Shown here: positions 21,716 to 49,051 of the stretch, piece after piece
Layout of the letters: every line of letters begins with the position of its first letter
Numbering within the stretch: position 1 is the first letter of the stretch
Notes under the pieces: generated by a model
What the model was told of the DNA's origin: nothing
The model's database searches: none
What the model saw: only the letters and a program-made list of their open reading frames with translations
Assembly: GCA_022484695.1 (NCBI GenBank)
Contig: JAKVKU010000009.1
Coordinates: 62,001 to 126,000, forward strand
Length of the DNA stretch: 64,000 bases
Reading direction: 5' to 3'
Source of the DNA: Lactobacillus sp.
Lineage (GTDB): Bacteria; Bacillota; Bacilli; Lactobacillales; Lactobacillaceae
Translations under genes and position numbers: made by a program

Positions 21716-21719
21716 ATAT

Positions 21720-45415: not shown

Positions 45416-46594
45416 ATGGAAATTGGCATTGATAAGATTGGCATGTACACACCAAATCAGTATGTGGATTTAGTAGAATTAGCCATTCATCGCAAAATTG
45501 ATCCTGATAAGTTCACTATTGGCATTGGCCAGGACAAAATGGCTGTGGCACCCTTATCTCAAGATACCATCTCCATGGCCGCCAATGCAGCCGCCCAAAT
45601 TTTAAGCGATGCAGATAAGGCTGCCATTGATTTGGTAATTTTGGGCACCGAATCTGGGGTGGATAACTCAAAAGCCGGCGCATTATACGTTCAGCGGCTA
45701 TTAGGTATTTCCAATAAAGCCCGGGTCTTAGAGATTAAAGAGGCCTGTTATGGGGCGACGGCGGGGCTGCAATTTGCCAAGTTGCATATTGCCCAAAACC
45801 CTAAAGCCAAAGCCTTAGTCATTGGCTCAGATATTGCCCGCTATGGTCTGGATACCCCAGGAGAAGTCACCCAAGGTGCTGGGGCCGTGGCCTTATTGGT
45901 GGCCGCTAATCCGCGTATTTTAGCCTTAGATATGCGCTCAGCTTATTACAGTTCAGAAATCAACGACTTTTGGCGGCCCCTGGACCAATTGATTGCCGAA
46001 GTTGATGGTAAATATTCCAACGAAGCTTATATCAAATTCTTCCAAATGGTTTTTGAAGATTATCAACAACAAACTGGCTACCAGCTCAATGACTTTGCCG
46101 CCATGGTCTTCCACTTGCCTTATACCAAAATGGGCTTAAAGGCCCTGCGGAAGGTCTTGGATCAAGCAGACAACGCCCAGCAAGATAGCCTGCAGCAGCA
46201 CTACCATCAAAGCACCCTGTACAGCCGCCGCATTGGTAATATCTACACTGGGTCTTTGTATTTATCATTCTTGTCTTTGATCAACAATGACATGACCTTA
46301 AAGCCGGGGATGCGCATTGGCTTGTACAGTTATGGCTCCGGGGCCGTGGGTGAATTCTTCTCAGGGACGCTGCAGGAAAATTACTTGGATATGCTTGATC
46401 CCATGCATTACTTGGAAATGTTTGAAAATCGCACGAAGTTAAGTATCGCGGAATATGAAGCCCAATTTAAGAAACAATTGACCCCGGGTATTGAGGCTCA
46501 AAAACTGATTAATACCGACTTAAATGCCCCTTATTATTTCGCTGGTATTCAAGCCAAGCAACGACAGTATAAAGCGGGGGCCAAAATAGTCTGA
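45416..46594 (+). CDS. mvaS: Hydroxymethylglutaryl-CoA synthase
   Basis: A 392-residue thiolase-fold enzyme joining acetyl-CoA and acetoacetyl-CoA. The catalytic Cys is in EIKEACYGATAGLQFAK; His in VFHLPYTKMG and the Gly-rich YSYGSGAVGEFFSG follow. It begins exactly after the mvaA stop, so translation is coupled. The gene order thiolase, reductase, synthase is a compact upper mevalonate operon. A terminator follows. Confidence 0.96.
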   Translation: MEIGIDKIGMYTPNQYVDLVELAIHRKIDPDKFTIGIGQDKMAVAPLSQDTISMAANAAAQILSDADKAAIDLVILGTESGVDNSKAGALYVQRLLGISNKARVLEIKEACYGATAGLQFAKLHIAQNPKAKALVIGSDIARYGLDTPGEVTQGAGAVALLVAANPRILALDMRSAYYSSEINDFWRPLDQLIAEVDGKYSNEAYIKFFQMVFEDYQQQTGYQLNDFAAMVFHLPYTKMGLKALRKVLDQADNAQQDSLQQHYHQSTLYSRRIGNIYTGSLYLSFLSLINNDMTLKPGMRIGLYSYGSGAVGEFFSGTLQENYLDMLDPMHYLEMFENRTKLSIAEYEAQFKKQLTPGIEAQKLINTDLNAPYYFAGIQAKQRQYKAGAKIV

Positions 46595-46617
46595 AAACAG
46601 CTTTGAAAACTCGTTAT

Positions 46618-46647
46618 ATCGCCATTTTAAAAGATGGCGATTTTTTT
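46618..46647 (+). terminator. Intrinsic terminator of the mevalonate operon
   Basis: ATCGCCAT (46618-46625) pairs with ATGGCGAT (46634-46641), then seven T. It separates the operon from the ncRNA promoter. Confidence 0.9.
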
Positions 46648-46658
46648 GAGTTCAAATG

Positions 46659-46687
46659 TTGCAAACGCATACATTATATGCTATATT
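46659..46687 (+). promoter_or_regulatory. Extended -10 promoter of the large noncoding RNA
   Basis: -35 TTGCAA (46659-46664), 17 bases, -10 TATATT (46682-46687) with TG one base upstream (TGcTATATT). It predicts a start near 46692-46695, exactly where the closing helix of the RNA begins. Confidence 0.85.
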
Positions 46688-46691
46688 ATAA

Positions 46692-47611
46692 GTGCGGAAG
46701 GGATAAGCGATTATCCTACCAAAGCAATTCAAGGCAGAGCCTGATCCGCTATGAATTGAATTGTTTCAAGCAACACTGAACCATGGTTGAAGTGATTCAT
46801 GCCATGGCTTCCGTTACTAAAACAATATCGATATTGTGTCAGAGTACGGCAATAGCCGTATGATGAGTTATTAGAACCAAGAATTATGAACCAAGCGACA
46901 TTAAGAATTTGAGAACCAGGTGCCAAGTTATACGAAGTACCAATCAACAGTTCCAGCGTAATCAATTAAAAGATTCGTGTACCAAGATAATGAAACGCGT
47001 TAAGCAGATCATGGTCTGATGTACCATTTGAGGTTTTTTACGACAGAACTAGTTTCAAATGTATCAAGTATTACAAGCATCGAGCATTGATGTAACAAGC
47101 ATTAAGTAAGCGTCACAAGTTATTTAGTGGTACAAAAATGTGCGATGGTTTGAGGGTTTCTTCTCGAAACAAGAAATACCCGAGTTGGCTTCGATATCAG
47201 TTATGGCTTTCGGTAAGGTTACCGGATTAACTAATTGAAAAAGCTCAGCGCCTGCGCAACAAGCATAGTTTATATTGATACCATAAACGTGTTTGTCCCA
47301 AAAAAATTTAGACTAATGTGGAGGTGTATGTCTGATAACTAGGCATATTTCCGAACCAAAACCAGTCATTGGTGTACTGAAAAAGTCTAGCTTTTGAACA
47401 TCAACCATTTGAGCATGTTATAGTAGACAGTCATAAAAAATAGCAGACATGTCACCGATAACTGACTACAATTGAATAGAATTACAGAGGTGGAACATTA
47501 TTCAAGTTTTCTTAATTAAGTGGGATATAACTTATCCAACTTCCGCAAATGCAAACTGAGAGACCATTGTGCCGGACGCCGACAGAATGGTCTTTTAGTT
47601 TGCATTTTTTT
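46692..47611 (+). ncRNA. Giant structured noncoding RNA, GOLLD-class candidate (ROOL as alternative)
   Basis: About 920 nt without a supported ORF, AT-richer than the flanking genes, with its own promoter and a strong terminator. Structure is visible by eye. A closing helix joins TGCGGAAG (46693-46700) to CTTCCGCA (47540-47547), about 850 nt apart. Just inside lie two matching hairpins, GGATAA-GCGA-TTATCC (46701-46716, GNRA loop) and GGATA/TATCC (47523-47537). Further stems: CAATTCA/TGAATTG with inner AGGC/GCCT (46725-46758), the perfect 16-base palindrome 46822-46837, TACGGC-AATA-GCCGTA (46845-46860), GGGTTTCTT/AAGAAAtACCC (47154-47181), CGGTA/TACCG (47211-47224), and CAAGCA..GTTTAT/ATAAAC..TGTTTG (about 47259-47296). 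Size, closing helix and host order fit GOLLD; ROOL RNAs are nearer 580 nt. Class is inference; existence of one large folded RNA is well supported. Confidence 0.8.
47547..47611 (+). terminator. Strong intrinsic terminator of the large ncRNA
   Basis: AAATGCAAACT (47547-47557) pairs with AGTTTGCATTT (47597-47607), and AGACCATT (47561-47568) with AATGGTCT (47586-47593); seven T end it. It starts where the closing helix of the RNA ends. Confidence 0.9.
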
Positions 47612-47671
47612 GGTGCTATAATTGTGTATTAGTACAATAATGCGTGTGACATTCAAAAGGAAGGCTAATTT

Positions 47672-49051
47672 ATGACCCAAAAACAACATTTCGACGCCAC
47701 TAGTCCTAAGAAAACCAGTCCCAAGAAACGGGTCAAACTGTCCAGCCGCCATCATATGGCTATTCTTTGGCAAAACTTTGCCCGGGATACCGACGTCACC
47801 GCCAAAGATGCCACCCTGCGGGAAAAGGCCTCAGTGGTGGGCCGGGTGGGTATCTTGATGTTATCCTGTGGTACCGGGGCCTGGCGGGTCAGAGATGCCA
47901 TGAATACCATCGCCCGGGATCTGGAAGTGACTTGTTCTGCCGATATTGGTTTCACCTCCATTCAGTTTACCTGTTTTGCCAATGGCCACAGTTATTCCCA
48001 GGTCTTAGCTTTAGCCAATACCGGGGTGAATACCGATAAGTTAAACACCTTGGAACATTTCGTCAAGGAATTTGAAACTGTTTATGCTCCCTTGACTATT
48101 CAACAGATTCATCAAGAAATTGATAAAATCCAAAGCCAAAAGGGCAATTATGCCCCCTTAAATGCCGGGTTGGCCGCGGCGATTGCCTGCGCCGGCTTTA
48201 TTTTTCTCCTGGGTGGGGGTTGGCCGGAAATGATCTGTGCTTTTATCGGTGCCGGTTTGGGGAATTATGTCCGCCGGAAGATGATCGACCGGCACATGAC
48301 CACTATTGCTAACATTGCCGTGGGCGTGGCGGTGTCTTGTCTCAGTTACCTGGTGATCTTCAAAGCCCTTGAAGCCTTGTTACATATACCCGCGGGCCAC
48401 GAAGCCGGCTACATTGGCGCCATGCTCTTCGTGATCCCTGGTTTTCCCTTCATTACCAGTATGTTAGATATTTCTAAATTAGACATGCGTTCCGGGCTGG
48501 AGCGCCTAGCTTATGCCATCATGGTCACCATTGTGGCCACCTTAGTGGGCTGGTTGGTGGCTTTGGCGGTGGACTTAAAACCCGCCAACTTCTTACCCCT
48601 GGGGCTCAGTCCGTGGGCCTTGTTGCTCCTGCGACTGCCTGCCAGTTTTTGTGGGGTCTACGGCTTTTCCATCATGTTCAATAGTTCCCGAAAAATGGCG
48701 GCCACAGCCGGTCTGATGGGGGCCTTAGCCAATACGCTGCGGCTGGAGTTGGTGGATTTGACCAACATTCCCCCCAGCGCGGCGGCCTTTTGCGGGGCAC
48801 TGTTAGCGGGGATCTTAGCCTCTTTGATCAATCGCTATAATGGTTATCCGAGAATTTCCCTCACCGTGCCGTCCATTGTCATCATGGTCCCGGGCCTGTA
48901 CATTTACCGGGCTGTGTATAATATCGGCTTCAATAACATCGGGGTGGGGGCGTTATGGCTTACTAGAGCTGCCTTGATCATCATGTTCTTACCCTTTGGT
49001 TTATTCGTGGCCCGAGTCTTATTTGATAAAGATTGGCGGCACTTTGATTGA
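47672..49051 (+). CDS. ThrE-family threonine/serine exporter
   Basis: A 459-residue membrane protein. A cytosolic N-terminal domain (about 50-165; VGILMLSCGTGAWRVRDAMN, ITCSADIGFTSIQF-like region) is typical of ThrE/DUF1212, followed by about ten hydrophobic helices covering the ThrE and ThrE_2 (DUF3815) regions fused in one chain. The first 35 residues are Lys/Ser-rich and disordered. Members export small amino acids or dicarboxylates. AAAGGAAGG precedes ATG 47672. It is a single gene with its own promoter (TATAAT at 47617) beginning directly after the ncRNA terminator. Confidence 0.88.
   Translation: MTQKQHFDATSPKKTSPKKRVKLSSRHHMAILWQNFARDTDVTAKDATLREKASVVGRVGILMLSCGTGAWRVRDAMNTIARDLEVTCSADIGFTSIQFTCFANGHSYSQVLALANTGVNTDKLNTLEHFVKEFETVYAPLTIQQIHQEIDKIQSQKGNYAPLNAGLAAAIACAGFIFLLGGGWPEMICAFIGAGLGNYVRRKMIDRHMTTIANIAVGVAVSCLSYLVIFKALEALLHIPAGHEAGYIGAMLFVIPGFPFITSMLDISKLDMRSGLERLAYAIMVTIVATLVGWLVALAVDLKPANFLPLGLSPWALLLLRLPASFCGVYGFSIMFNSSRKMAATAGLMGALANTLRLELVDLTNIPPSAAAFCGALLAGILASLINRYNGYPRISLTVPSIVIMVPGLYIYRAVYNIGFNNIGVGALWLTRAALIIMFLPFGLFVARVLFDKDWRHFD

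Follow-up and report, generated by a model that had tools for sequence, protein, structure and literature searches.

The analysed stretch of DNA (the window; 64,000 nucleotides of a 3.34 Mb Lactobacillaceae genome, whose genus we took to be Agrilactobacillus) encodes a discrete, highly structured noncoding RNA with its own promoter and terminator and no conserved ORF (46692..47611, + strand; a closed body of ~0.86 kb plus terminator). Comparison with relatives indicates that this RNA probably represents, in Agrilactobacillus, a Lactobacillaceae family that is undescribed and has no matching entry in Rfam. Sequence analysis establishes the RNA gene, its structure, its conservation and a promoter carrying a catabolite responsive element (cre, the binding site of CcpA). 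As to its role, we consider it an evenly balanced proposition that the RNA belongs to a catabolite-controlled family, is repressed by CcpA, and acts in trans as a regulatory RNA by base-pairing.

The gene lies between mvaS (HMG-CoA synthase; 45416..46594, + strand; PF08540 and PF01154) and a ThrE-type exporter gene (47672..49051, + strand), the latter being replaced by a different gene 3' of the RNA in other Agrilactobacillus species. A terminator-like hairpin of mvaS (~46617-46649, from sequence) precedes the sigma-A promoter (46659..46687, + strand), which consists of a -35 element (TTGCAA, 46659-46664), a 17-nt spacer, and an extended -10 element (TGC-TATATT, with TATATT at 46682-46687). 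The cre TTGCAAACGCATACAT (46659..46674, + strand), which was missed in the initial annotation, overlaps the -35 element and spacer in a register conserved in relatives, and agrees at all positions with WTGNAANCGNWWNCAW, which we take to be the cre consensus. Alignment with the RACE-mapped 5' end of the Enterococcus faecalis RNA RF02639 (PMC3166299) places the probable transcription start at 46692. The ends are closed by helix P1, in which the 5' strand UGCGGAAG (46693..46700) and the 3' strand CUUCCGCA (47540..47547) form 8/8 pairs, and the intrinsic terminator (47548..47611; hairpin 47548-47606 and U-run) begins directly after 47547. The promoter, both ends, the terminator, the exact eight-pair helix and the start of the terminator where that helix stops had all been annotated previously, and were confirmed on the sequence. 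Inside the closing helix, a lineage-variable middle region (approximately 46820..47200, + strand) is much shorter in other Agrilactobacillus species, and is followed by a 3' domain conserved among relatives (47258..47547, + strand), which from ~47317 (AUGUGGAGGUGUAUGUCUGAUAAC..) is common to genus g11 and Loigolactobacillus (g3, g9, g11, g25 and g38 are genus labels; f2 is a family label). The 3' domain contains a family-wide motif, ACAAUUGAAUA..GAGGUG..UUAUUCAAG (47436..47510, + strand; 39.6 bits with profile R1, described below). The terminator loop (GUGCCGGACGCCGACA, 47569-47585) was identical in 4/4 Agrilactobacillus sequences, while the sequence flanking it diverges.

The RNA was predicted to fold far more stably than expected by chance. 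Positions 46692-47611 gave -266 kcal/mol versus -207 kcal/mol in shuffled sequences (z of -7.8; 0/20 shuffles as good), and with the terminator removed (46692-47547) z was -5.2, again with 0/20 shuffles as good. The initial annotation had described a giant, end-closed structured noncoding RNA, and this part of the claim is borne out by the folding scores and by covariation (below); the GOLLD or ROOL identity attached to it is not supported, as the locus matched neither model. The local hairpins reported just inside both ends are possible, but their strands can equally pair with each other as an inner terminal helix, P2 (GGAUAAG, 46701..46707, with CUUAUCC, 47531..47537, + strand). The minimum free energy structure favours P2, which agrees with the inner terminal helices of other genera, and both pairings can form in all Agrilactobacillus sequences.

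End-to-end pairing was also evident across the family. Among 75 RNAs, the first ~24 nt paired with the ~30 nt preceding the terminator at a mean of -17.1 kcal/mol, compared with -10.6 kcal/mol when partners were taken from dissimilar RNAs. In 46 distinct RNAs, the third pair column of P1 was U-A, A-U or C-G and the eighth was G-C or A-U. Overall, 88.9% of positions were paired in the P1 register versus 81.2% with permuted partners (maximum of 500 permutations: 84.5%), both of the first two percentages being inflated since the register was chosen by maximising pairing. Compensated pairs, proposed earlier as a check on the helices, exceeded shuffled expectations in two genera. The Agrilactobacillus consensus structure (an alignment of four rows from three distinct lineages) contained 15 doubly compensated pairs versus 6.2 after shuffling (0/500 shuffles reached this) and 1-2 when the register was slid. 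In Secundilactobacillus (11 species), 25 of 107 consensus pairs had changes on both sides, versus 8.5 shuffled (0/500) and 2-5 slid, and compensated pairs stood at 6/16 in Limosilactobacillus plus g3; all of these structures came from the same alignments on which they were tested, which favours the unslid register.

Relatives were found well beyond the genus. BLASTN recovered the RNA in four Agrilactobacillus genomes, including its own, where its location is unchanged, the 3' ~370 nt are conserved and the middle varies; elsewhere, matches mostly covered the first ~50 nt, comprising the promoter with cre in the -35/spacer followed by a purine-rich 5' end. The promoter pattern matched in 185 of 398 Lactobacillaceae genomes, and its reversed counterpart, used as a control, in none of the 398. 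Some of these matches were ordinary mRNA promoters, and cre promoters running straight into ORFs (e.g., L020-L024, L068, L083-L085) were excluded as mRNAs; many others led into 230-1070 nt without a long ORF and then a terminator. The recurring unit in Lactobacillaceae is a cre promoter, a 5' end (GUGNGGAAGG) that pairs with the 3' end, and a terminator, over 230-1070 nt; in the food species Levilactobacillus brevis, the member measures ~0.58 kb. A strict promoter and 5'-end pattern, from which the window copy itself departs at one cre position, gave 59 exact hits when run against 84,980 species genomes of bacteria and archaea, every one within Lactobacillaceae (Agri-, Levi-, Secundi-, Limosi-, Compani-, Loigo-, Pauci- and Bombilactobacillus, Pediococcus, and Lactobacillus jensenii and psittaci).

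A second shared element lies near the 3' end. In seven genera, the motif AAUUGAAUA - spacer - GARGGUG - AUU lies ~60-80 nt ahead of the closing strand, and the window RNA carries it (AAUUGAAUA..GARGGUG..AUU) together with the covarying structure and cre promoter by which we define the family. We represented this motif by a sequence profile, R1, which is blind to the promoter and contains no base pairs, RNAalifold having detected none in the short alignment across genera. With a cut-off of E 0.01, R1 matched 80 of 398 genomes; the weakest of these matches may be chance. For the best 30 of the R1 loci, a GUGNGGAAAG-type 5' end was located upstream in all 30 (331-995 nt away), and a cre was recognisable in 29, being degenerate in L188. 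This check is partly independent, since several of the 30 loci were also used to build the motif; others, many of them from genus g38, were new.

Gene neighbourhoods connect forms of very different size. In Agrilactobacillus, Companilactobacillus, g25 and g9, mvaS is the gene immediately upstream of the RNA, one other downstream gene connects g9 and Lactobacillus, and two connect Levilactobacillus and Secundilactobacillus. Based on these shared neighbours, the compact and giant RNAs of these genera are likely orthologous despite little sequence similarity. Companilactobacillus often carries the RNA as two or three copies in tandem, with a separate cre promoter for each; such tandem ~400-nt RNAs of Companilactobacillus type were seen at L026, L029-L031, L033, L035-L039 and L043. 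In genus g38 (L046-L049, L051-L053), a second cre promoter leads into a conserved leader of ~300 nt (AUCGGAAGAAUCUCAGGUCAG..) that precedes an ORF; this is a different conserved element. In Secundilactobacillus and Levilactobacillus (L128, L151, L127), the RNA is near rpiA-like, phosphopentomutase-type and NupC-type nucleoside transporter genes (named by eye). We found no report of the Lactobacillaceae RNA in the literature searched, subscription journals and supplements being outside the search. The large Lactobacillaceae forms are new; catabolite-controlled regulatory RNA, as a kind, is already known.

Outside the Lactobacillaceae, the closest architectural counterpart was enterococcal. A genome from another family of the same order (G097) carried the same promoter and a ~330-nt RNA that aligned to RF02639 over its full length (38.7 bits, E 4e-7, against a gathering score of 533). 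RF02639 was detected in 9 of 58 Enterococcaceae genomes and only in that family, and at all nine loci (L246-L254) a cre-like site sits in the -35/spacer in the same register, the 5' end is of the GUGUAAGGAAGG type, and a helix joining both ends is predicted. RF02639 corresponds to EF0869_EF0870/Ref19C of E. faecalis, a stationary-phase-specific RNA whose Northern signal appeared only after 24 h of starvation, and whose 5' end was mapped by RACE (PMC3166299). Ern0160 is its Enterococcus faecium counterpart at the same queA-mgtA locus, and directly represses mRNAs of LysM proteins (PMC12870237). Like the window RNA, Ref19C/Ern0160 is chromosomal, lacks a conserved ORF, and combines the cre register and an extended -10 with a GUGUAAGGAAGG 5' end (GUGN..GGAAGG in both) and ends paired before the terminator. 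However, it is ~350-470 nt long, is flanked by queA and mgtA, and its RF02639 model had no match to the window RNA up to E 10. Primary sequence comparisons did not establish homology: the best nhmmer match between Lactobacillaceae and Enterococcaceae RNAs had an E of 0.09 (decoys, 1.7), R1 reached E 0.09 in a single Enterococcaceae locus, and the two-block motif exceeded shuffles in 3 of 10 Enterococcaceae RNAs, all three from one genus. The promoter register, 5' end and closing helix nevertheless make Ref19C/Ern0160 a possible distant relative of the Lactobacillaceae family. Separately, a third family (f2; L221-L223) has a similar unit, a cre-promoted, structured RNA of ~330-360 nt with AAAGAGAG/CUCUCUU ends and no Rfam match.

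Because the cre lies over the -35/spacer, we infer that CcpA would repress the RNA promoter in the presence of glucose. A precedent is 6S RNA of L. lactis, whose level is ~3-fold higher when ccpA is missing, and a cre located across the -35 is considered repressive (PMC8414754); a ccpA gene is present in the window genome (541 bits). While a preferred sugar is present, CcpA bound to the cre would block the promoter, and upon sugar exhaustion the ~0.9-kb RNA would be transcribed from 46692, fold with its ends paired (P1/P2), and stop at the 47548-47611 terminator. We hypothesise, by analogy with Ref19C/Ern0160 and a putative link to it, that the RNA would then act in trans, repressing mRNAs by base-pairing as Ern0160 does in E. 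faecium. The internal sequence differs strongly among genera, an unusual trait in antisense regulators whose targets are conserved, and one that argues against this mode of action.

That variability is more in keeping with a different role, in which the RNA would be a scaffold or an RNA-only or RNP assembly (like GOLLD, ROOL and OLE) that binds protein, the ribosome or itself, with catabolite control setting only its timing. The large closed fold, the conservation of the ends and 3' domain while the middle expands freely, and the scarcity of any evident antisense segment conserved across genera are all consistent with this role, and the alternative local and terminal pairing of the Agrilactobacillus ends could allow domain-swapped multimers. 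Members as short as ~230-290 nt have the same ends, however, and Ern0160, with its similar architecture, targets mRNAs directly and was assigned no protein partner by Grad-seq, though a higher-mass peak was present (PMC12870237). We regard a scaffold as rather unlikely, though it is the most probable of the alternatives. A broader formulation, in which one catabolite-controlled RNA class spans Lactobacillaceae, Enterococcaceae and the third family, with a fixed promoter/end module around a growing interior (230 to >1000 nt) and giant forms that serve as scaffolds or assemblies and not as antisense RNAs, is tentative and in our judgement doubtful. Strong length variation between fixed ends offers a natural experiment in the growth of large bacterial RNAs.

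If the preferred reading of a CcpA-repressed, trans-acting family is correct, it adds a large structured RNA family of many food and gut lactobacilli that is absent from Rfam 15, and makes CcpA and glucose a directly testable control for a large RNA family. The link to Ref19C/Ern0160 is itself testable, and Ern0160 affects gut colonisation (PMC8631354) and virulence of E. faecium. Every RF02639-type promoter examined has a cre-like site; CcpA is not mentioned in the Ref19C/Ern0160 literature covered by our word search.

Two local explanations are very improbable. The RNA lies between mvaS and the ThrE-type gene on the same strand as both, and could in principle be a long cis-acting leader or attenuator of the latter or a 3' UTR of the former. 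Its own promoter follows the terminator-like hairpin of mvaS, though, and a strong terminator precedes thrE. Different genes lie downstream in the various Agrilactobacillus species and genera, which argues against a cis role and led us to reject a ThrE leader; mvaS is upstream in only four genera. The RNA might instead encode a small regulatory peptide and have a dual function, which we rate just as improbable. By eye, two Agrilactobacillus species have a 22-codon frame after GGAGGUG inside a conserved hairpin, but the frame ends at codon 5 in the window sequence, the SD spacing is poor, and the hairpin accounts for the conservation. The longest + strand ORF within the RNA has 36 codons compared with a shuffle mean of 54, the longest on the - strand (78 codons) was reached in 26% of shuffles and is not unusual, and no ORF within the RNA matched Pfam. 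A protein-coding reading of the locus was rejected on these grounds, in agreement with the earlier observation of no supported ORF between mvaS and the ThrE-type gene.

Membership in GOLLD or ROOL is extremely improbable. The RNA resembles GOLLD in outline (length, a terminal helix, and a large structured RNA of Lactobacillales with conserved 3' and variable 5' parts), and its length had been taken initially to favour GOLLD over ROOL, which is likewise a long ncRNA class of Lactobacillaceae (RF03087; the L. salivarius lncRNA, PMC5643018). That preference did not hold. A cmscan of the window at gathering thresholds returned tRNA only, and a permissive scan of 46580-47690 (E of 10 or less) returned six matches, each scoring far under its gathering threshold; no large-RNA family was among them, GOLLD and ROOL included. 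Neither the GOLLD (RF02032) nor the ROOL model matched anywhere in the window genome. These searches did recover GOLLD in G370 (E 1e-20, below the Rfam cut-off) and ROOL in G352 (E 1e-24, above it), showing that both models work within Lactobacillaceae, and G352 carries ROOL and a member of the cre-controlled family at separate loci. Genes for GOLLD and ROOL reside in phage and prophage genomes, in many cases close to tRNA islands (PMC12286853). In contrast, the window RNA is chromosomal, beside mvaS and under a cre promoter, and the nearest tRNA within the window is at 21719. Its sequence had no match in the phage and plasmid collections and the promoter/5'-end pattern was absent from IMG/VR, on which basis a phage or plasmid origin was rejected. 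The G370 match (L125; G370:C1:646685-646856) was partial, at 78.9 bits.

Finally, 6S RNA can be practically discounted: a cre overlaps the -35 of the 6S gene in about a third of LAB species (PMC8414754), as it does here, but 6S RNA is a ~190-nt rod with a central bubble and an RNAP-binding fold, unlike the window RNA in size and structure, its model (RF00013) had no match at the locus, and the window genome has a separate ~195-nt 6S candidate (G000:C5, E 1e-6). Given the predicted CcpA control of the window RNA, a further likeness is to RsaI of Staphylococcus aureus, a CcpA-repressed regulatory RNA of ~144 nt from an unrelated family.
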